Part shown: piece by piece, positions 2,702 through 33,486 of the stretch
Layout of the letters: the number at the start of each line of letters is the position of its first letter
How positions within the stretch are numbered: the stretch's first letter is position 1
DNA from: a virus
Direction: 5' to 3' (one strand)
Virus record (IMG/VR): IMGVR_UViG_3300029309_000098
Span: 1 to 40,045 of that record
Length of the DNA: 40,045 nucleotides
The notes under the pieces: generated by a model
What the model saw: the letters and a program-made list of their open reading frames with translations, nothing else
Databases searched by the model: none
What the model was told of the DNA's origin: nothing
Position numbers and translations under genes: made by a program

Positions 2702-5056
2702 ATGGCACAAAACCCATTATCAGGACATACAGCAGGAACTAATGACGGATTAAGAGACGGCGACCACATACTATCTCCATCCCTGACCAACATATACGAA
2801 GGGTTACACGGTAACGGTATACTAAACCCACACGATACTGCTTTTGGTAGCACAGATAGAAACAATGTCGCCAACTTACCCGGTGCTGTAACTAACTCTA
2901 GTGACCATATACTCACTATCAAATCATTCCGATGTGTTCTTGATGGTGTATTATACAACATGGATGACGGTTCAGGTGGTGCTACATTCAGTGTAACACT
3001 GGCTGCTGGTGCTGATATGTTATCGGGCACTTCTATTGCTAACCTAGGCAGTGGCGAAGAGTGCTTGTTCGCCATAGTTGCTGTTGGTGGCTTAGGTGAC
3101 GGTAGTGTTAAGTTTGTTCAAGGCGCAAAGAGCACTATAGGTGCTGGTAATTATCCATCCCTATCGGGTAGTAACGCAGATGCTTACTTGAAAATGAGTG
3201 TGGCTGGCACTGCTCAAAATAAACAAAGTATGGTGATTGCTACTGTAAGGGCGGTTCACAATAACTCTCCGGGCGCTGGTAACACTGCTAACCTCACTAT
3301 AACAGAAGTAAACGATAAGCGTGTGTTTATCCGACCTTCACCTTTCTATCTATCTCCTGTCACTACAGGTTCTCCGGGTGATTCAGACCATCTAAATTCA
3401 CATACTGCTTTAGCACAGATACACGGTGCAGATGAACACGGTGACTTTGGTAACAACGGTGTATTATGGATGTCGTATAACGAAGATGATAATGCACCAA
3501 ATCTTTACTTTAGTAGCGCTGACTCGAATGGTGCAAACCGACACACACATCTACTCGGCCCTAGTCGTATCAAAGCCTTAACAGCGAGTCGTAACTTTGA
3601 GTTTGATGATGCACAAGTGTTTACCTTTACAGGTGCTGGAACTAAAAATCTCACACCTACTGGAACATTCCCTCCCGGTCACGCTATTATAGTAACAGTG
3701 CTGAGTGGGGGTGCTGTAACATTCGACCCAAGTGGGATAAACACTACATTGACTGCTAGTGATGCTGTGATGTTTGTGTATAACGGCACTGCTTTTGTAA
3801 AAGTCATTCACAGTGGGATTACATCTCAATCGTCAAGTGGTGCTACTGGTCTAGTTCAACTATCGGATGGTAGCGGTGGGTATACAAGTGATGCTAAGTT
3901 ATTTTGGACTACAGCATCTTCTACCTTTACTGTTAATGGTAAACTTACAGTTACAGGGTTAATAGACCCTACTGGACTTGAGTTTACCCCAGTTGGTAGT
4001 AACCCCGGTGGAACTGCTGCTAACACTCTATGGTTAGACAGTGGTGCTTCAAACGCACTTAAGCATGGGGCTAACACAGTTCTTAATTCAGCATCGAGTG
4101 TTGCTGACTTGAGCGATGTCACAAACGCTGGTTCAGGTGCTATAATAACTTCAGGTGAGCGCACTAAACTGACTAATATAGAGACTAATGCTGATGTTAC
4201 GGATGCAACTAATGTTAACGCTGCTATCGCTGGTCACAGTTACACAGCAGCAACAGTGGCTGCTAACGATAAAGTGCTAATACAAGACACAGATGGTAGT
4301 AATGTAGTCAAGACTGTTACTGCTTCTTCTATAGCAGCACTAGGCGGCGGCGGTGGTGGTGGTGGTAGCGTTATAGTGGATGCTGATAACGACACTAAGA
4401 TAGATGTTGAAACCACATCAGACGACGATAAAATAATTATGACTAGCGCCGGAACTGAAGTAGTTGAAATACACGATGCTGGTTTATTACTTGGTAAAAG
4501 AATGGCACTTCTAAATGCTACCAAACTTAGTTTACACAATGGTAATGCTGCTTCAAATGCTGTAACTATAGAGGTAACTAACGCTCATGTTACTGGTAGC
4601 AGTAAAGCCCTTACATTCAATGCTGACTTAGGTGCTAGCGATAAAATTCTAACAAGTGCTGGTGTGGCTGCTGCTGCTGGTAGCGGAACTTTTAGTCTAG
4701 GTTTAGCAGGACAAATTGCTAGTGGTGTTACAGAATTAGTAACACTACATGCACAGAAATTACAAAGCACAATAGTATCTTCGGGTAACAGAAATGGTGT
4801 TGTCAACGATTTAGGTCAATACATTATAATGACGGGTTCGGGTCAAACTTACAATTTACCTAGTGGTGTATTGATAACTGCTGGCTCTCAAGTTACTATT
4901 CTAGCAGGGTCGTCAAACGCTGTTACTGTTACAGCCACTGGTGGTGCTACTATCAACGGTGGCGCTGCTAACGGTAGCATAACAGTAGCGGGGTATAATG
5001 GTGTTACTTGTATATGTATAGACAGTAGTAACAACTGGTTAGCGCTAGGTGTGTGA
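2702..5056 (+). CDS. Tail-fibre-like protein with poly-glycine hinge
   Basis: The 784-residue protein starts at an ATG with a GAGGTGAG ribosome site overlapping the previous gene. It is extremely rich in Gly, Ala, Ser, Thr, Asn and Asp and made of short beta-strand repeats, as in trimeric marine-phage tail fibres: for example a segment near 380-420 reading LVQLSDGSGGYTSDAK followed by FTVNGKLTVTG. Eight consecutive Gly codons (4343-4366) form a flexible hinge before the distal third. The C-terminus (about 710-784) has the beta-solenoid-like pattern TVTATGGATINGG and ends with a strand around NNWLALGV, typical of fibre shaft ends. The probable role is host recognition. No catalytic motif was seen. 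Confidence 0.7.
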   Translation: MAQNPLSGHTAGTNDGLRDGDHILSPSLTNIYEGLHGNGILNPHDTAFGSTDRNNVANLPGAVTNSSDHILTIKSFRCVLDGVLYNMDDGSGGATFSVTLAAGADMLSGTSIANLGSGEECLFAIVAVGGLGDGSVKFVQGAKSTIGAGNYPSLSGSNADAYLKMSVAGTAQNKQSMVIATVRAVHNNSPGAGNTANLTITEVNDKRVFIRPSPFYLSPVTTGSPGDSDHLNSHTALAQIHGADEHGDFGNNGVLWMSYNEDDNAPNLYFSSADSNGANRHTHLLGPSRIKALTASRNFEFDDAQVFTFTGAGTKNLTPTGTFPPGHAIIVTVLSGGAVTFDPSGINTTLTASDAVMFVYNGTAFVKVIHSGITSQSSSGATGLVQLSDGSGGYTSDAKLFWTTASSTFTVNGKLTVTGLIDPTGLEFTPVGSNPGGTAANTLWLDSGASNALKHGANTVLNSASSVADLSDVTNAGSGAIITSGERTKLTNIETNADVTDATNVNAAIAGHSYTAATVAANDKVLIQDTDGSNVVKTVTASSIAALGGGGGGGGSVIVDADNDTKIDVETTSDDDKIIMTSAGTEVVEIHDAGLLLGKRMALLNATKLSLHNGNAASNAVTIEVTNAHVTGSSKALTFNADLGASDKILTSAGVAAAAGSGTFSLGLAGQIASGVTELVTLHAQKLQSTIVSSGNRNGVVNDLGQYIIMTGSGQTYNLPSGVLITAGSQVTILAGSSNAVTVTATGGATINGGAANGSITVAGYNGVTCICIDSSNNWLALGV
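4343..4366 (+). repeat. Poly-Gly codon tract (3 GGC + 5 GGT)
   Basis: Eight consecutive glycine codons, three GGC then five GGT, lie inside the fibre-like gene. Such trinucleotide runs can change length by slippage and would change the length of a hinge in the fibre. Confidence 0.9.
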
Positions 5057-12405: not shown

Positions 12406-12684
12406 TCAATCCCTACTCTCCAAGATGTAGGCCAGTTTCATCACTATACTGACAATCGAATCGAATGTGCTTGTTATCTTAGATGAGGTTAACATTGATG
12501 GATGAATGGTTATGTAGATACACGATAGAGTTTCTTCGTTGCTAGGTTTGTTTCCCATGACAACATTGATTCTCTTATGTTTACCAACTCTCGCTAGGCG
12601 AACATTGAACTCAAGATTAGGCCACTTGACAGAAAGACCCATCCTAATAGTTTCACAAGCAACTTCCAAACCCTCTTTATCCAT
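12406..12684 (-). CDS. Unknown 92-aa protein beside primase
   Basis: The protein has 92 residues, with an ATG preceded by GAGGTGA. It has an N-terminal helix, a central beta stretch (FNVRLARVGKHKRINVVMG) and a helical C-terminus, suggesting a small alpha/beta fold. No motif is recognised. It sits one base upstream of the primase and four bases downstream of the PD-(D/E)XK nuclease, so a replication accessory role is likely by context only. Confidence 0.55.
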   Translation of the reverse strand: MDKEGLEVACETIRMGLSVKWPNLEFNVRLARVGKHKRINVVMGNKPSNEETLSCIYITIHPSMLTSSKITSTFDSIVSIVMKLAYILESRD

Positions 12685-12688
12685 AACA

Positions 12689-13660
12689 TCACCTCATATC
12701 CTCCGGGTCAATTGCTAAGTCTCCCATCCAAGCAGGGCACATTTCCATGAAGTCACAATACTCACACTTTCTTTCGTGGGCTTCAGCAGGGAAGTCATCA
12801 TTCAAGTGTGCATCTACTACACGCCTGAGTCTATTCTCTACAGTCTTTGGAGCGTAACGACCACCCGGGCCTTTGACACTTTCATAATCCCACATTGGCC
12901 CGTCTCCTCCATTAATACCACCACCGGGGAACTGCCAACCCCAACCAACTACAGGTAGGTATTCTATGTGTGGGCTATGTTCTAACATCATACGGTAGAA
13001 CTGCATTTCAGCACGCATAGAAGAGCGCTTACGACCACCTTTCTCTACCCACTTACCTGTCTTTAACTCCATCAGAATGATGCCTGTGTGGTCTGCATCA
13101 ATGAATATACGGTCAATAAAACCCTTCATGTGTATAGCAACTTCAGTTCCATCACTAGCAACCACCACTCTAGTAGCGTGAACCTCTACCTCATTACCGA
13201 TAGGTAGCCAGTCTCTTGCATTCTGACGCATGTGCATGAGTCTTTCAAATTGCCAGTCGCTGTATTGATTCATCTGCGCTTTTTCACCATAGATGTAAGG
13301 TGAAGGTGGAACAGGCATAGCCTTTCGTAATTCTTTCTTTGCTAATTCAGTATTACCATCAGTGATAAAATTCTCAACTTCAGGCATTATCTCAGGCGCT
13401 TGTTTCCAAAACCACTCAACAGCATCGTGAACATTACTACCACGAACATGGTAGTCTCTTTCTTCACCACGCAAGCCCAGTATGTTTTGAAAGTAATACT
13501 GCTTAGGACAGAAATCGAATGTGCCTACTGATGACTTAGTAATACGAAGAATCTTGTCATCCATGTCAGGCGACCAGTTGTAGCAAGACTTATCGTAAGA
13601 CTCTAACAACTCAGGATACTGATACTCAATATCATTCTTTTGATTCGGATTGAACCTCAT
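12689..13660 (-). CDS. PD-(D/E)XK nuclease, Cas4/RecB-like with Cys cluster
   Basis: The 323-residue protein starts at the ATG at 13660, which has a GGAGGT site; an in-frame ATG at 13675 lies on that site. The RecB-family nuclease motifs are in order: FDFCPKQYYF (C51), GSNVHDAV (H78), FIDRIFID, LMELKTGK and AEMQFYRMML (QxxxY type). A C-terminal CEYC-x5-C cluster with C51 provides the four cysteines for the 4Fe-4S cluster of Cas4/AddB-type nucleases. It probably resects DNA ends for recombination-dependent replication, together with the RadA-like ATPase. It is not associated with CRISPR genes here. Confidence 0.85.
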   Translation of the reverse strand: MRFNPNQKNDIEYQYPELLESYDKSCYNWSPDMDDKILRITKSSVGTFDFCPKQYYFQNILGLRGEERDYHVRGSNVHDAVEWFWKQAPEIMPEVENFITDGNTELAKKELRKAMPVPPSPYIYGEKAQMNQYSDWQFERLMHMRQNARDWLPIGNEVEVHATRVVVASDGTEVAIHMKGFIDRIFIDADHTGIILMELKTGKWVEKGGRKRSSMRAEMQFYRMMLEHSPHIEYLPVVGWGWQFPGGGINGGDGPMWDYESVKGPGGRYAPKTVENRLRRVVDAHLNDDFPAEAHERKCEYCDFMEMCPAWMGDLAIDPEDMR

Positions 13661-13985
13661 TCTTCTTACCTCCAAACTTGTTTGTTTTTATCTTCACAAC
13701 AGGGGCTTCTTGAGGTTCATCTTCCATAGTTAAGCGGAGTAGTATAAAGTATCCAATCAAATCTTCTATGACATCTTTATCAGTTTCGATACTGTCATTT
13801 CCACGCATCAGTCTACTTAGTTTGTCATCTATTCGCACTCTTAAACCAGCATCAGGCCCGAGGTGGCTAAAGAATCGTATAGGGTCGAATGCACTATCTC
13901 CATACTGTTTGTTCTTCTCACCTAGTAAGTTTAGAACTCTAGCAGCAATCTTAGCACACTTTAATTTAAACGATTCCTCAGTCAT
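13632..13985 (-). CDS. DUF1599 / Nmad1-like helical protein
   Basis: The 117-residue all-helical protein has KNKQYGDSAFDPIRFFS (about 24-40), VRIDDKLSRLMRG (50-62) and DLIGYFILLRL (74-84). That order is typical of a very common phage family (DUF1599, also named nucleotide modification associated domain 1), related in look to MazG-type NTP pyrophosphohydrolases. The Lys-rich tail overlaps the next gene. It may sanitise or modify nucleotides; the biochemical activity is not established from sequence. It lies between the tandem-PIP microprotein (4-bp overlap) and the nuclease. Confidence 0.65.
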   Translation of the reverse strand: MTEESFKLKCAKIAARVLNLLGEKNKQYGDSAFDPIRFFSHLGPDAGLRVRIDDKLSRLMRGNDSIETDKDVIEDLIGYFILLRLTMEDEPQEAPVVKIKTNKFGGKKNEVQSESKE

Positions 13986-14128
13986 TCTTCCTCACCTTTA
14001 TTTGCTTTGTTACCTTTTATACTAACTTTCTCTACAGTCATGCCCCACTCAGTGAGTTTAGTCTGTCTAGTTCCATCAGTATGTAAGCCCCATTCATTCA
14101 ATGTTGTTTGTCTTGTTTTATCTTTCAT
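13982..14128 (-). CDS. 48-aa microprotein with two PIP-box-like motifs
   Basis: This short ORF has 48 residues. Its ATG follows a near-perfect AAGGAGGAAT ribosome site that overlaps the PolB stop codon, and its TGA overlaps the next ATG. It contains two copies of an 11-residue unit 15 residues apart, TRQTTLNEWGL (5-15) and TRQTKLTEWGM (20-30). Each fits the PCNA-interacting pattern Q-x-x-L-x-x-aromatic and resembles archaeal PIP boxes such as the QSTLESWF type, except that the second aromatic is Gly. The tail is Lys-rich then acidic. Directly between PolB and other fork enzymes, and two genes from PCNA, it is a good candidate for a bivalent clamp-binding peptide. Confidence 0.75.
   Translation of the reverse strand: MKDKTRQTTLNEWGLHTDGTRQTKLTEWGMTVEKVSIKGNKANKGEEE
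14011..14026 (-). promoter_or_regulatory. Possible TATA box of the DUF1599-nuclease-primase unit
   Basis: The - strand reads GTTAGTATAAAAGGTA, sharing TTAGTATA with the family consensus but lacking the GCAGC end. It lies about 33 bp before the ATG at 13985, inside the tandem-PIP gene. Confidence 0.35.
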
Positions 14129-14141
14129 AATTTATTCCTCC

Positions 14142-16550
14142 TTAGATGTATGACTTAGGCACGATGCTACCGGAAGCAACATCTAAATCCCAGTCGAGAC
14201 TCTCATATATTCGCATCAATTTAGACTTCACCATCACGCTCAAAACCTTATCCCAGTCTATCGCATAGTTATCTAACTCTTCTTTGTTGCGGAATGCAAC
14301 GAAGTCTACTTTCTTACGCTCACCTTTGTATGTGTAGTAGTCGGGAACATCATCATCGAACCCTTTGACATACAGCCACGATACACTGTCACCCTTACCC
14401 CACTTGTCATCAGGTAACTCGGCAACATGCTCATTGTAATATAAAGCAGCCTTGGCTACCGCAGGTAGTGACTTGTAATCTTTGAAGTCCATTGTCAATC
14501 TAGTAGAACAGGCTACATCTTCAATCGGTATATTCCCATCTATGACATCCAAACTAACTCTTCTAAGCACATCAGTGACACTTGTTTCATCTTTACCCTC
14601 ACCTATCATCTGCATGGCTGTTCTTTGTATCTGCTTGGTCAAGCGAGAAGAACTAGATGCTTTAATTTCATATCCGGCAATCTTCATTTCACCCTTACTT
14701 TTTTCAGGCCACACCTTGATACCAAAGTATCGGTTCTTTACAGGCGCAGTAATCCAGTAGTCAAAGTATGCTTCAAGTTCAACTTCCATAGTATTGAGTT
14801 GTAGATTCTCTTGTGCTGTCTTAGTCAAGTGGTCTGCTAACGATGCTGCTTTATTAAAGGGCACTTGGATGAACGCCGAATCTGTGTGACCATAGAGTGA
14901 CTTGTAGCCCTGAGCCTCACTTTCCTGTAGTAAGTGGTGAATTGCCTCACGCCCTCGATGTGTAATAGCAGCAGCGATATCATTGTCAATCCACATACCT
15001 TGTAGGGCTTTCATCCCAGTCATGCCGTATAGAGCATTGACTAGAACCTTAGCAGCAGTCTGCATCATGTCGTATCCTAGTTTCTCATCAGGGTCAGTAG
15101 ACTCACGCATGAGTTTCTTATACTCAGCACGCAGTGCTAACATCTCTTCTACTACAGAAGGTAACAGCCCCTTTTCTTTTTGACACCAGTGAGAACCATC
15201 ACCAAGTGTTTTGATGCCCTCTCCGGGTGCATCACGCTTGGTTTCATAGGATAGATTATCACTGATTATAATGTTAGGATACAGTGAAGCGTAGTCCACA
15301 ATGGCTACACCTTCGTGACGACCCGGTATAGGGTCAGGAATGTGAGCAGCAGTGAGTTTTTCACGGCTGACATTTACCGCACTCTTCGCTTTCTTCTCGG
15401 TTCTCCTACCGATAAGCCCTCTAAAGTAACGAGTAACTTTGTGTAGGCTCGCCCACGATACACCACACAATTGTTGAGTTGCTATGAAGAAATCAAGAGC
15501 GTTTAGTTTCTTATCTATGTCACGCAGTAATGTGGTATCAAGTAGACAGTAATCTACGAAGTCATCCCAGTGTTCATACCAACCATTGTGAACAGTCATG
15601 CCTTCAATCTCTTCTGTAAGTTTACTACCCAAATCTAAAGACTCCGCTACAGTATTCAACCTACGGTTAGGTAGTTGTCCTCTTCCTGACTTCTGCCATA
15701 TAGTCTCGAACCCACTACCTGATTTCCATGGTGCTGCTGAATCCCAACACAATCTACCTTTGATTGGTTGTTGAGTGTCCTTGTAGTGGTCGGCCTTGAA
15801 CGGTCTAATAACTTGGTCTAGTGGTGAGAGTTGGTCAGGGTCTTTGAGTCTACGCATAAGGTGTGGTAAGTCAGCCCACATGATAGCGTGGGCTACAAGA
15901 ATATCAGGGTCACGCTCATGTAGGAAGTCAATGAAGTTTCTATGCATAGATGCTTCGCTAAAAGAAAGATGAAGTTCATATTCTTCATCACGAACCTTTC
16001 TTTCGTGTATTTCACAGTGCCTACCAGTCTCAGGGTAGGAGCAGTTTGTTCTATCATCAGTCCATGCGAATACAACAGGTGTATCGAGGTCACTATCCAC
16101 TACAGCCATAACTGTAGTGAAGTCATCTTTAGTATCCCACTCTAAATCGAAATACCACACACGAGGTTTGAACTCAGGTAGTTTGTCGGGATACATCTGT
16201 AGAAGAAGTTGGTCTAAGTAATTCAAGTCTGCTTCATAAGTAACCATTTCATCTTTGATATCCCACAGGTCTGTAGGTCTGTCTACTTCTACCTTCATCA
16301 ATTGCTTACCATCTATACCAGTAGCACGAACATCCTGATGTAGAATAACACTAGGATGCCGATTGAGCATCCTTGTTAACTTCCAGTTGTCTGTATCAGT
16401 AGGTATCCAGCAGTGTGGTTTGATGTATTCATCATCATGAGGCTCTATGTGCTTCTCATGTAACACCCCGTCTTTACCACGGGTGCGTATGTATAGATTC
16501 GGTTGTCCGAAGTCATCTGTATCAGGTGGGAAATACCAGTCAATAATCAA
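14142..16550 (-). CDS. polB: Family B DNA polymerase
   Basis: The protein has 802 residues with a TTG start, since no nearer ATG exists and AAGGG precedes it. The exonuclease domain shows YFDLEW (ExoI, D135, E137), HAIMWADL (ExoII region, D227, with His where Asn is usual) and YCLLD (ExoIII, D338). The polymerase domain has VDYASLYPNII (motif A, D419), KVLVNALYG (motif B, 501-509), YGHTDS (motif C, 553-558) and KNRYFGIK. In motif C the first Asp of the common YGDTDS is His555, while the metal-binding D557 stays. No C-terminal PIP box is seen, so clamp binding may be internal or through the microprotein encoded next. It is the main viral replicase, just downstream of PCNA. Confidence 0.95.
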   Translation of the reverse strand: MIIDWYFPPDTDDFGQPNLYIRTRGKDGVLHEKHIEPHDDEYIKPHCWIPTDTDNWKLTRMLNRHPSVILHQDVRATGIDGKQLMKVEVDRPTDLWDIKDEMVTYEADLNYLDQLLLQMYPDKLPEFKPRVWYFDLEWDTKDDFTTVMAVVDSDLDTPVVFAWTDDRTNCSYPETGRHCEIHERKVRDEEYELHLSFSEASMHRNFIDFLHERDPDILVAHAIMWADLPHLMRRLKDPDQLSPLDQVIRPFKADHYKDTQQPIKGRLCWDSAAPWKSGSGFETIWQKSGRGQLPNRRLNTVAESLDLGSKLTEEIEGMTVHNGWYEHWDDFVDYCLLDTTLLRDIDKKLNALDFFIATQQLCGVSWASLHKVTRYFRGLIGRRTEKKAKSAVNVSREKLTAAHIPDPIPGRHEGVAIVDYASLYPNIIISDNLSYETKRDAPGEGIKTLGDGSHWCQKEKGLLPSVVEEMLALRAEYKKLMRESTDPDEKLGYDMMQTAAKVLVNALYGMTGMKALQGMWIDNDIAAAITHRGREAIHHLLQESEAQGYKSLYGHTDSAFIQVPFNKAASLADHLTKTAQENLQLNTMEVELEAYFDYWITAPVKNRYFGIKVWPEKSKGEMKIAGYEIKASSSSRLTKQIQRTAMQMIGEGKDETSVTDVLRRVSLDVIDGNIPIEDVACSTRLTMDFKDYKSLPAVAKAALYYNEHVAELPDDKWGKGDSVSWLYVKGFDDDVPDYYTYKGERKKVDFVAFRNKEELDNYAIDWDKVLSVMVKSKLMRIYESLDWDLDVASGSIVPKSYI

Positions 16551-16554
16551 GTAA

Positions 16555-17322
16555 TCACGCCCTTTGGTCTACGATAACCAAGACATCATCATCTTTCTCT
16601 AGCGCTAGTATGGTAGACTCACCCATGTATACAGTAGCCTCACCACTGCCTAACAGCGCTATGTTATCCATCAACCATGGCCCGAATGTAGATGCTACAC
16701 TACCCTGCACAGGGCCGGTAGAATCACGCAACTCAAGAGTAGTAAACAGTTTAGTTTCATGTCGCTTACCTGCTGATATCAAAAACTCATTCTCACCAGC
16801 ATGAGCAGTCACTTTAAACACAGGGCTACTATTGAGAATGCCTCTCATTTTTGAGACTGTAGTAAGGTCGTCTAATGTAATAGTGCCCGAGGTATTCAAT
16901 TCACAATCGTGAAACTTAGTCCACTTAGATTCAATGGCAGCATCTACCAGTTTCTGAAACAACACTGCCTTTGTGTGGCTGACAATAGTTGATGATGTAG
17001 GCATGGTAATCTTAGATGACCCACAGGTGAGGTTCAATGTTTTGGCTGAACCTAACTGAACTATACTTACATCATCACCCTTGGCTGCCTTAAGAAACTG
17101 TCTTACCTTCACCAGTTCACTAATAGATAGTGTTCCTGCTTCCTTAACAACACCCTTCACTTGGCGCTTCTTCCTCAAGTAATGTGAAATGAAGGCTATG
17201 CTAGTCTCCATCCAACCTACACCATCGGTAAGTGAGAACTTAATCTGTAAGTCCTCAGTATTCTTACCAAAGGCTGATAGATACTCTATGAATTGCTTTC
17301 TGTCAATTTGAACTTTAGTCAT
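16555..17322 (-). CDS. PCNA-like sliding clamp
   Basis: The 255-residue protein has the right length and two-domain beta/alpha pattern for PCNA, with a divergent sequence. Supporting segments are the TLSISELVKVRQFLKAA helix-strand unit, the interdomain stretch around 118-135, and the C-terminal strands EATVYMGESTILALEKDDDVLVIVDQRA, read piecewise as typical PCNA end strands. It is first in its unit, behind a TATA-like box, with a GAGGTAT site, and is followed by PolB after 4 bp. It should form a trimeric ring holding PolB and other PIP-bearing proteins. The call rests on pattern and context as much as on motif. Confidence 0.7.
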   Translation of the reverse strand: MTKVQIDRKQFIEYLSAFGKNTEDLQIKFSLTDGVGWMETSIAFISHYLRKKRQVKGVVKEAGTLSISELVKVRQFLKAAKGDDVSIVQLGSAKTLNLTCGSSKITMPTSSTIVSHTKAVLFQKLVDAAIESKWTKFHDCELNTSGTITLDDLTTVSKMRGILNSSPVFKVTAHAGENEFLISAGKRHETKLFTTLELRDSTGPVQGSVASTFGPWLMDNIALLGSGEATVYMGESTILALEKDDDVLVIVDQRA

Positions 17323-29948: not shown

Positions 29949-31133
29949 TCATCTCCATTCATCTAGTATAGACTGTATATCATCTGCTTGTCTTTGCATG
30001 ATGTTTCGCTTGCTCTTACCCTTACCTTTCTTCTTCTTCGCAGGGTAGTTTTTGGATTTGTCCTTACCTTTCTTCTTTCTCTCCTCCGCTTTGATGCGTG
30101 TCTTACGAATGCAATCATAGCAGTGATACATCTGTGTATCCATGTCAATGAACTCAGGAAGCACGAACTTCTTACACTTACGACATTGAATCTTATCATC
30201 TTGAACTTTGGCTTTCCTATTATCTTCTGTGTAGCAACACAGACATACACCGTCTTTCATCTCAGCAAAGGTGGATATGGTATCGTCACACTTAGGACAT
30301 ATATCTGTCATGTTGAATAGTCCATCTGTGGCTAACATCATGTCAGGGCAACCACACTTGTCGCAGTGAAAGTCCTTCTTCAACTTAGCATCATCAGCAT
30401 GAATCCACTCATGACTACCACACTCAGGGCAAGAATATATATCCCAACTGTCAGGAAAGCCTTGCTCATCATCCCAGTCATCCTCCTCCAAGTAAATCTT
30501 AGGTTTGTTCTTAGGCTTGGGGTTGTCCTCTACAAAGTTGAATTTGTTACCCCCACCGAATGATTGGAATAGTGATTTACCCATAGGTATACCAAGAATG
30601 TCAGCAACATACTGTTGTTGTGACTTGCCCTCGACAGCATGGTGACAGTAGATGCTACGAACATACTCGATGAGAGAAGCAGCATCAGGTTGCTTGAGAC
30701 ACTCAGCATCACCCATGAGATAACCGAGGATACACAACTGAACGCCTGTCCTACCATGACCACCAACACACTGTGTGGATACAGTCTTGATACCGAGTCG
30801 CTTGATGTCATCAACAAGAGCAACCCAAAACTCACGACCAACATCTTGTGGGATGCTGAAGTCAGGCCAGTCAATACTGATGATGTGGCTCGATGCTCCG
30901 TCAACATGGTCACCACAGGTAAAACCATCAGGTGCAACTGTGCGACTAGAACTTCTATCCATCACTTGAGCAGGGCCGATAGCAAGGTCAGGCGCAGGTG
31001 ACATAACATGGTAACCACCGTTACGAGTGTGACCACCTGCATGTATTGCTACTCCGTCTATTGTAAACACAACAGGGTTGCCTGTGTGACAATTTGCTTT
31101 ACTTCCAAATCCATTCATCCAATTATTGTTCAT
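29949..31133 (-). CDS. Protein tyrosine phosphatase-like domain fused to three zinc ribbons
   Basis: The protein has 394 residues from the ATG at 31133, with GGAG upstream; an in-frame ATG at 31142 is possible. Residues 89-91 are a WPD loop (DWPDFSIP) and residues 122-128 hold the CX5R phosphate-binding loop (QCVGGHGRTG, C122 and R128). That is the PTP signature with the general acid and the nucleophile both present. Three zinc ribbons follow: CPEC/CDKC (235-260), CPKC/CLCC (279-300) and CRKC/CYDC (317-341), then a Lys-rich tail. It should remove phosphate from protein or RNA 5' ends; the zinc and basic parts suggest nucleic-acid or RNA-polymerase targeting. It overlaps the ATP-grasp protein gene. 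Confidence 0.72.
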   Translation of the reverse strand: MNNNWMNGFGSKANCHTGNPVVFTIDGVAIHAGGHTRNGGYHVMSPAPDLAIGPAQVMDRSSSRTVAPDGFTCGDHVDGASSHIISIDWPDFSIPQDVGREFWVALVDDIKRLGIKTVSTQCVGGHGRTGVQLCILGYLMGDAECLKQPDAASLIEYVRSIYCHHAVEGKSQQQYVADILGIPMGKSLFQSFGGGNKFNFVEDNPKPKNKPKIYLEEDDWDDEQGFPDSWDIYSCPECGSHEWIHADDAKLKKDFHCDKCGCPDMMLATDGLFNMTDICPKCDDTISTFAEMKDGVCLCCYTEDNRKAKVQDDKIQCRKCKKFVLPEFIDMDTQMYHCYDCIRKTRIKAEERKKKGKDKSKNYPAKKKKGKGKSKRNIMQRQADDIQSILDEWR

Positions 31134-33486
31134 CTTTTTCATCTCCTTTTATCTGTTTGAGGTAGTCCTCAATGTTGTCTTGCTTAGCAAGATACTTGCT
31201 CAACACCGCAGTCATCTCAGGAGTATCAGGGTCTGATGGGTCAATAGCCTCATACAGTTGTATGAACTCCTGTGCTGTCGGGAAGAACTCTTTTGCTTTG
31301 ATAAGAGCAATCTGTTCCTTGACACTCGCTCTTGTCTCTTGTTGCGAACCTACCAACCATACATCAACAGGTGGTGGTGCAATCATTAAGTTTGCATTGT
31401 AGTCATCAAACAACGACTTCATCTTAATGAGTTGTGATTGTGTTAGTGCTGTTGGATTATCAGTAGCCCACTCAATGTGCTTAGCACATACTGAACAAGA
31501 GGCTACACCACACATGATGAAGTCTTTGTTTGAATAAGAGTTGTGTGAGCCTCGGTCACCGTGTCGCCAACCAACAGGTAGAATCTCCATGACTTTTCTT
31601 AGCGACTCATGAACCTTAGTGCTTGTAGCGATAGGGTTCTTGCGCCAATACGAAGGCTTCTTAGTCAGCACGAAGTCAAGTATATCACTCCAATTGTTTT
31701 CAGGCGAAGTGGCTGCTTCCATTGTATCTCTTGAGTCGTTATCTAAGAACTCACGAGCCATTTGGAATACTGATGACATACTGTTCATGTCTCTACGAGG
31801 ATTGAAACCTTCTGTCCCTACATCGAAAGCATGCTTGCTCAACCACTTGTTGAACAAGTGACCACCGTTGTGCACAGCATTCTCGGCCACATTGACAACC
31901 TTGACAAGATTGGCTAGTGTATCTTCATTAGCACTGTCAGTGAACGCTTGTAGTGCATCACACACCTCAGCGCCCTTCTCCATGGAGTCACCCCACTTAG
32001 CGCCACCGTATGATGACGACCAACCTGCTGCGAAATGTTTTGCTAAGAAACGAAGTAACTTTGCTGTGTCGCCCCAGTCAACCTTGATGTGTGAGATAGC
32101 AGCATAGTAGTGACTACGGGTAGAGTCTAAGTATGAAGTTTTGTTGATTTTCTTCCACACATCACTACCAACACAAGCAGTCATAGTAGCGAATAGTTCA
32201 GCGTTAGCATTTTGCTTGAGACTGCGAGCGTGTCTCATCTCACCAAGACCAAGCGCAAGCATAGCCTTGGGTAACCAAGCACAGAACATACCTGCTAGGT
32301 ATGCAACATCTTGTGGTTTGCTCATCGGTAGACTGACCCACTGATGGAAGAAGGTAGAGAACCATCCCTGTTGTTTACGCCAGTATGTATTACCATCATC
32401 AAGACCACGCCTGAAGTCATCAAGGTAGGCATAAGGAGCATACGGCTTAGGCTCAAACTTGTTATCATTATCCATGACAACCCATCCGGCTGAAGCCTCA
32501 ACCCAACGGTCACCTACAGTAACAGAAGGAGTGATGGCATAAGCAACGCCTACACCACGACAGTGAGCATAGATGTGTGAGAGTCGAGAGCCACTCGGCT
32601 CGACTACCATGAAACCATCAGGACACTTCTCGGGAGTAATGTTCTCTTCAAGCCATGCAACTTCTTCAAGACCACTCATCACAACGAAGTCTTTGATAAT
32701 CAACTCACCCTGTGGTATCATACCGATAGTATCCACACCTTCAGGTGGTGGGTTGACAGGAGTATGTGAAGGAGCACCACGAATCTGTGTGAGTCTGTGG
32801 TTCATCTTTGGTAAATCCAAAACACCACGGTCACGATGTTCTTGTAGTTGTGTGAAAACAAACTCAAGTTCGTGGTGAGTAGGTGCATAAGATAGTGAAT
32901 TCATAATCATGTTGTCTTTACTGTGTTCATTTACACGAAGAGGGAATGCAAGATTGAAACCATGTCCGGCTGTAATACCATCATGACCTACGCCCATGAT
33001 ATTGTAACCTTGGAACATCTTTGGTTTATCCATACCTGTCTCCTCATCGGGTATCATCACAGTCAACCCATCTGCATCCACTTCAGGATGTGAGAGCGCC
33101 ATAACACAAGACGCTGCTGCATCAATGAATGGCATAAGAATCATACACCCATCAGGGTCATGCTCTTTCATAACACCACTCAAGTATTCAAACTTCGATA
33201 TCAAATCTTCTTCATCATCACACTTGATAGACTCAATCACACCGTGGCGTGGAGTCTCAGGGCAAGCCCGTAAGAAACATGGATAACCCATGTGCTTACC
33301 TGCTGATGCTAACTGTAACACATTGTCATCAATGTTAACCAACGCCATCTGTAATGGATTCCAGTCTTTGGGTATAGCATACATCTCATGTGCTGAACGA
33401 TGTGTAAACAACGCCCTTGCCTTCTGCGATTTGATGCCCTTTATCCTATCTGAACTATTCAATTCTGCTAATTCCATATATTCCAT
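31123..33486 (-). CDS. ATP-grasp plus phosphohistidine-swivel protein (PEP-synthase/rifampin-phosphotransferase-like)
   Basis: The protein has 787 residues. The N-terminal part (about 65-240) has ATP-grasp-like strands: MGYPCFLRACPETPRHG (66-82), MILMPFID (115-122) and LTQIRGAP (232-239). Residues 258-340 look like the swivelling phosphohistidine domain of PPDK, PEP synthase and rifampin phosphotransferase: GFMVVEPSGSRLSH with H304, then CRGVGVAYAI, VGDRW and ASAGWVV. A helical region of about 440 residues follows, including CGVASCSVC (zinc). Its role would be phosphoryl transfer from ATP through His to an unknown acceptor. The first ATP-contact Lys seems to be Arg, so activity is uncertain. 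It is first in its unit, with the phosphatase-zinc-ribbon gene overlapping its 3' end. Confidence 0.55.
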   Translation of the reverse strand: MEYMELAELNSSDRIKGIKSQKARALFTHRSAHEMYAIPKDWNPLQMALVNIDDNVLQLASAGKHMGYPCFLRACPETPRHGVIESIKCDDEEDLISKFEYLSGVMKEHDPDGCMILMPFIDAAASCVMALSHPEVDADGLTVMIPDEETGMDKPKMFQGYNIMGVGHDGITAGHGFNLAFPLRVNEHSKDNMIMNSLSYAPTHHELEFVFTQLQEHRDRGVLDLPKMNHRLTQIRGAPSHTPVNPPPEGVDTIGMIPQGELIIKDFVVMSGLEEVAWLEENITPEKCPDGFMVVEPSGSRLSHIYAHCRGVGVAYAITPSVTVGDRWVEASAGWVVMDNDNKFEPKPYAPYAYLDDFRRGLDDGNTYWRKQQGWFSTFFHQWVSLPMSKPQDVAYLAGMFCAWLPKAMLALGLGEMRHARSLKQNANAELFATMTACVGSDVWKKINKTSYLDSTRSHYYAAISHIKVDWGDTAKLLRFLAKHFAAGWSSSYGGAKWGDSMEKGAEVCDALQAFTDSANEDTLANLVKVVNVAENAVHNGGHLFNKWLSKHAFDVGTEGFNPRRDMNSMSSVFQMAREFLDNDSRDTMEAATSPENNWSDILDFVLTKKPSYWRKNPIATSTKVHESLRKVMEILPVGWRHGDRGSHNSYSNKDFIMCGVASCSVCAKHIEWATDNPTALTQSQLIKMKSLFDDYNANLMIAPPPVDVWLVGSQQETRASVKEQIALIKAKEFFPTAQEFIQLYEAIDPSDPDTPEMTAVLSKYLAKQDNIEDYLKQIKGDEKDEQ

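Follow-up and report, generated by a model that had tools for sequence, protein, structure and literature searches.

Directly behind the family B DNA polymerase gene (polB) of a virus whose hosts are probably marine archaea lies a gene for a 48-aa microprotein with two tandem motifs resembling PIP boxes. Sequence comparison strongly supports it as a real viral gene with PIP-box-like motifs, and the motif is well supported as a PIP-box variant with one aromatic residue and a predicted ligand of the sliding clamp. The reading we lean towards is that clamp binding has been shifted to this free-standing, double-headed ligand, which would act in trans in the replisome. The account is built on the gene itself, its conservation and the selection on it, its likeness to host PIP boxes, the predicted fold of a neighbouring protein, the decay of the motif in a loop protein (C) and the loss of a terminal tryptophan from PolB.

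The window (the whole stretch of DNA that was analysed) is 40,045 nt long and corresponds to positions 1 to 40,045 of IMG/VR record IMGVR_UViG_3300029309_000098, from a group which we take to be the magroviruses. Related loci came from overlapping scans of viral contigs: 26 from a polB scan, 7 from a PCNA scan, 16 from a microprotein-profile scan and at least 79 from a polB-profile scan. Among the matches listed, these amounted to 90 distinct records, the window counted in and L026, with its polB cut off, omitted. The polB tree was made by a quick method from 73 distinct PolB rows, each of 400 aa or more. Three kinds of motif carrier were labelled: A, a short motif ORF without a zinc ribbon, such as the microprotein; B, a zinc-ribbon-like protein; and C, a loop protein of about 100 aa. 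The set of annotated phages included no near relative (all 731 polB matches were below 60% identity) and gave one match to the microprotein, at chance level, and a PolB profile search of genome contigs confirmed no relative.

A small gene behind polB

The first-pass annotation had placed an ORF with two motifs 15 residues apart at this site. Translation confirmed it and assigned it to the minus strand, where 48 codons are open from an ATG start (the plus-strand frame tried has a stop). The motifs, TRQTTLNEWGL and TRQTKLTEWGM, follow the patterns Q7xxLxxW and Q22xxLxxW, and both have TR before and G after. The sequence AAGGAGG is found 8 nt upstream of the ATG, and most relatives compared have GAGGTGA, GGAGG or something similar there. 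The ORF had been described as overlapping its neighbours, which holds for the downstream gene (4 nt, ATGA) and not for polB, from which 13 nt separate it. Its supposed place between the PolB and nuclease genes was right on the PolB side; on the other, a 117-aa gene intervenes before the PD-(D/E)XK nuclease. The acidic GEEE end of the microprotein is probably the Shine-Dalgarno sequence of this next gene read as protein. We discarded the idea that PolB is read through into the ORF, as the frame relation varies between relatives.

Table 1. Coordinates of the features discussed, in nucleotides of the window.
Feature	Position	Strand	Basis
92-aa homolog of loop protein C, motif deleted, between nuclease and primase	12406..12684	-	
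NKPSNEET, replacing the motif-bearing loop of relatives (RQTTLDEF and the like)	12529..12552	-	
PD-(D/E)XK (Cas4-like) nuclease	12689..13675	-	
117-aa downstream gene, PHROG 1485 (unknown function), 4-nt overlap with microprotein gene	13632..13985	-	
48-aa tandem-motif microprotein gene (carrier A)	13982..14128	-	ORF, relatives, pN/pS
Motif 2, QTKLTEW, residues 22-28	14045..14065	-	translation
Motif 1, QTTLNEW, residues 7-13	14090..14110	-	translation
Shine-Dalgarno-like AAGGAGG of microprotein gene, two bases in common with the polB stop codon	14137..14143	-	
Family B DNA polymerase, tail ...IVPKSYI (C-terminus 14145-14160), without the terminal Trp of relatives	14142..16550	-	
Sliding clamp, predicted PCNA fold	16555..17322	-	AlphaFold2 model, Foldseek, structural alignment
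397-aa gene, phosphatase-like with Cys pairs	29949-31142	-	sequence reading
QSILDEWR, C-terminal PIP-like tail of the 397-aa gene	29952-29975	-	

When the window was shuffled 300 times by dinucleotides, a strict tandem turned up twice by chance, loose tandems equalling the window's two arose in about 2% of shuffles, and strict single motifs equalling the window's in 6%. The motifs kept in relatives are stronger evidence than these shuffle statistics. Carrier A was found in 22 of the 90 records, as 16 distinct proteins with the motifs kept, and in 19 of the 22 (the window and 18 relatives) it follows polB; the sequence of L114 lacks the end of polB. Three more distant records with a split polB (L125, L126 and L128) have a tandem-motif ORF of 29-36 aa near position 4000, about 9 kb before polB, and no PCNA was detected in them by either of two profiles. 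In L128, a ligase-like gene lies near this ORF. L032 and L048 have a carrier A with a single motif.

Absence of the ORF from relatives, or loss of its Q, L and W positions, had been named as grounds for giving up the idea. The idea came through this check: in carrier A the Q at position 1 and the L at position 4 are kept, and position 7 alternates between W, Y and F, with Y or F replacing W in many. The pooled pN/pS was about 0.38 (28 pairs from eight window-clade sequences), and 0.71 for the three closest sequences alone, a value for which the three pairs together gave 2 synonymous and 6 nonsynonymous differences. Judged by these substitutions, carrier A is under purifying selection as a protein.

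The proposal that the ORF was kept so that translation of the next gene is coupled to that of polB, with no function as a protein, would explain the ATGA overlap and the GEEE end encoding the apparent Shine-Dalgarno sequence, and is nevertheless very improbable given the purifying selection, the same motif in unrelated carriers and the aromatic class kept even though a change from W to Y or F takes two base changes.

The 117-aa gene behind the microprotein gene is of a ..YGDSA type, a pattern present in 17 of the 19 records where carrier A follows polB and seen nowhere else in the survey. Of the 71 records outside these 19, 56 have a KYGVTME-type protein, MazG-like by sequence reading, and so do L033 and L034.

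The motif and its presumptive clamp

Both copies in the window have the PIP-box core of Q at position 1, an aliphatic residue at position 4 and an aromatic at position 7, and this core is kept in relatives (W/Y/F). Position 8 is Gly in both copies, and the second aromatic of the full PIP consensus is absent. For comparison, host tails were taken from genomes of the order to which a Candidatus Poseidoniaceae archaeon (L129) belongs, covering 23 FEN1 loci (20 of the 50 matches in one list and 3 from another) and 10 of 20 PolD genes. The FEN1 tails end in a PIP box at 22 of the 23 loci (21 with Q and one with K; L210 is cut short), and the commonest tail, QTSLFSF, is at the end or two residues from it in 14 loci. 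The PolD large subunit ends in Q[LM]SL[SA]DFL (e.g. QLSLSDFL) in 8 of 9 complete genes, with L279 lacking the Q; L271 is incomplete. Since these FEN1 and PolD tails also do without a second aromatic, the Gly at position 8 weighs little against clamp binding. PCNA itself was present in 17 of the 20 genomes of the Poseidoniales sample. None of 96 host genomes matched the microprotein profile, in a search of limited power run without a positive control.

The archaeal PIP consensus and cases with a single aromatic are documented in the accessible text of three papers (PMC4929162, PMC3504372, PMC6881253); according to the last, 43% of the binders in a curated collection miss one aromatic. Compared with an archaeal PIP box, such as the Archaeoglobus fulgidus peptide KTTQSTLDSFFK in the accessible text of PMC4929162, the microprotein is alike in Q1, T/S/K at position 3, L4 and the aromatic at position 7. 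It differs in carrying two copies, in being a free-standing protein of 48 aa, in its motifs not being C-terminal and in the Gly at position 8.

The first-pass annotation had put the ORF two genes from PCNA, and this was borne out by structure prediction, which gave a PCNA fold to the protein encoded two genes upstream. The gene before polB clearly encodes a predicted PCNA-fold clamp, seen by its modelled fold and not by its sequence. The AlphaFold2 model (43 sequences) had a pLDDT of 93.2 and a pTM of 0.89; its top Foldseek match was Pyrococcus furiosus PCNA (E 8e-12), and it aligned with Haloferax PCNA over 222 residues with a Z of 19.2 and an rmsd of 2.9. By sequence, the protein had no match in Pfam, by phmmer against PDB or by hmmsearch with its profile against PDB, and a profile-level comparison to host PCNA gave nothing significant.

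Given this divergence, the motif could instead have its binding site elsewhere in the viral replisome (clamp loader, PolB or primase) and not in a clamp pocket. The non-aromatic position 8 of carrier A and a viral PCNA too divergent for every sequence method used would agree with that. However, the motif agrees, position for position, with the tails of host FEN1 and PolD, and single-aromatic PIP motifs are common among curated binders (PMC6881253, accessible text), so we consider binding elsewhere unlikely.

Where else the motif occurs and is lost

Carrier B, which we read from its sequence as zinc-ribbon-like, is a protein of 67-87 aa with an RxYRG-type end, found in 21 of the 90 records. It lies just before PCNA in 6 records and within about 210 nt after the end of polB in 15, and in several B proteins a further Q.[RK]L follows 14 residues later. 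Carriers A and B were never found in the same record of the survey. At none of the six loci where a B gene immediately precedes PCNA could a motif gene and PCNA be read in one frame as a single chain.

Carrier C was recognised in 78 of the 90 records (61 without A and 17 with A), and every one of these has the motif in A or in C. The 12 records with no recognisable C are L024, L048, L075, L098-L103, L125, L126 and L128, some of which are contigs that end early; in seven (L075 and L098-L103) there was no A, B or recognisable C within the available sequence. With identical C sequences collapsed before counting, the loop motif Q..[LIM]..[WFY] was intact in all 52 distinct C proteins from records without A and in 5 of 14 from records with A. 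Among the latter, three closely related proteins keep it as QLILDDY, QLVLDDY and QLIIEDY, and nine have lost it variously, by deletion, by a change of Q to R, K or E, or by a change of the aromatic to His. A Fisher p for the association ignores kinship and is not to be taken as a test. If regain is disallowed, the tree, read by eye, gives four losses, all in A carriers: the window with L035, L036-L038, L040, and L033 with L034. On this reading of the sequences, the pattern rests on few independent events, with the window clade and L033/L034 belonging to one part of the tree. Carrier A does not force the loss: in L032 and L044 the motif is present in C as well as in A, and its core survives in the C proteins of L042, L043 and L045.

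The model of C (pLDDT 85.5) is arranged as helix, two strands, loop, strand and helix, and the motif falls in its central part, which is predicted with lower confidence (block pLDDT 60-74). Its best Foldseek match to known structures had an E of 0.56, and Pfam and PHROGs gave no consistent family. VIA-align listed selecase (4qhh: Z 7.8, rmsd 2.6, 70 aligned), other zincin-like chains and, with a Z of 4.4, 6mdx ('protease dependent DPC repair'); by the tool's own scale, every one of these matches may reflect no more than a shared arrangement. HExxH was found in none of 66 distinct C proteins, and no family is claimed. In L110 (2521-2856; the contig of L023), C has QLTLDEWF followed by KVTLDNWF, a second motif-like stretch, so that a near-doubling is seen in C too.

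The earlier statement that PolB shows no C-terminal PIP box also stood: no Q-type motif was found in the last 40 residues of any of 85 PolBs, though the PolBs of relatives end in Trp. When K, R, E or S is allowed at position 1, 11 of the 85 tails match the PIP pattern (e.g. KRVLKQYW), the window's not among them. The terminal Trp is present in 68 of 68 records without carrier A and in 1 of 18 with it; the exception, L024, has carrier A and a PolB that still ends in WW. The Trp-less ends in A records are PKSYF, PKSYI, PKSYFEVD or PKSYFEEEIK. The loss is only suggestive, because it fits a single branch of the polB tree.

Three haloarchaeal virus PolBs from two genera (HF2, HJTV-3 and HRTV-27), examined out of the 731 matching records, end in PIP-like QTGLAAFC or QRGLADYV, therefore a motif in cis on a related viral polymerase does exist. 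By analogy, the PolB tail of the present viruses may be a degenerate PIP-like version. The two systems are alike in having a related polymerase with a PIP-like motif, and unlike in that it is in cis there and in a separate gene behind polB here.

The idea that the window has no PIP-like protein besides the microprotein was dropped in view of two other genes: the 397-aa gene, which ends in QSILDEWR, and a 787-aa gene with QDNIEDY within its last 20 residues. In two relatives, the homologs of the 397-aa gene end in MNLDDWA and TTLENFMRGDYD, keeping the L and the aromatic and not the Q. A scan of the records of two relatives gave few strict motifs, but known A and C genes were likewise lost at its ORF-filtering step, and it was kept out of the evidence.

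What the microprotein may do at the clamp

In the reading that we favour, each QxxLxx[W/Y/F] copy would sit in a PCNA's hydrophobic pocket, with the viral PCNA encoded two genes upstream as the likeliest partner. Relatives would hold clamp binding in cis, in the loop of C and perhaps in the Trp-ended PolB tail, while the microprotein, translated right after PolB, would act in trans as a clamp adaptor. The suggestion that it could tether two partners to the clamp was not upheld, as a pair of PIP motifs would engage a pair of clamp pockets and not a pair of partners. A point against the adaptor reading is that the microprotein has no evident partner-binding part beyond its motifs. The pockets of one clamp ring are about 50 A apart. 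The linker between the two motifs of carrier A is 6-8 residues long (12 in L033/L034), probably too short to reach from one pocket to another within a ring, therefore rebinding or the joining of two rings remain.

As the main rival reading, and a less likely one, the microprotein could fill PCNA pockets as p21 or TIP does, keeping host FEN1, PolD or RFC off host PCNA or regulating the viral clamp. The eukaryotic cell-cycle inhibitor p21 Cip1 is disordered and occupies PCNA with a single QxxMxxF-type PIP box. The likeness would be in a Q-type motif carried by a clamp-occupying protein, and the differences are that p21 is eukaryotic and has one PIP box. The microprotein consists of little but motifs, which resemble the host's own PIP boxes in FEN1 and PolD, and both features would suit an occupier. 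A further parallel is TIP, described in the accessible text of PMC4929162 and PMC6204406 as a 64-aa disruptor of the PCNA ring whose PIP motif is putative or non-canonical. It has in common with the microprotein its very small size, its archaeal setting and a PIP-like motif, and it differs from the microprotein in its 64 aa, in having one non-canonical motif followed by an amphipathic helix, and in being cellular and restricted to Thermococcales (same sources).

A Leu/Ile/Met-rich, helix-like segment does follow the carrier A motif in L032, L040, L044 and L048, as would be expected of an occupier of the TIP kind. However, its hydrophobic moment is not significant, being matched by shuffles in 9-23% of trials (three proteins); in L048 the segment with the strongest moment is elsewhere in the protein, and the same check showed no stand-out amphipathic segment after the motif in the window's microprotein. 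A phmmer search of every PDB chain at E values of up to 10 matched no solved chain and brought out no sequence relation to TIP, the 48-aa query being short and of little power. The same motif in a folded protein of about 100 aa and in a zinc-ribbon-like protein would also be odd for decoys, and a motif that recurs among the block's small proteins suits a role in the replisome somewhat better than one as an inhibitor.

A wider version of the replisome role, which we put forward tentatively, is that clamp binding is a movable part in these viruses. The motif would pass among three unrelated small carriers, and in the window clade the polymerase tail and the loop protein would have given it up to the double-headed microprotein, whose two heads may join two clamps (e.g. 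those of two daughter strands).

Among the titles and abstracts listed from the open-licence literature, none dealt with such a viral PIP microprotein, and a term search of the main text of a magrovirus survey (PMC10160649) returned no PCNA, clamp or microprotein. The accessible text of the Aoguangviridae profile (PMC10768690) does include a viral sliding clamp and a split PolB.

Clamp-binding peptides are normally part of the enzymes they tether. If our reading is true, a separate gene for a doubled peptide, together with the losses elsewhere in the block, would be a natural experiment in the wiring of a replication machine. The microprotein gene would also illustrate how gene callers with a length limit can miss a functional replication gene, and a single gene of 48 aa would give a handle on how the clamp is used in viruses of an abundant marine archaeal group.
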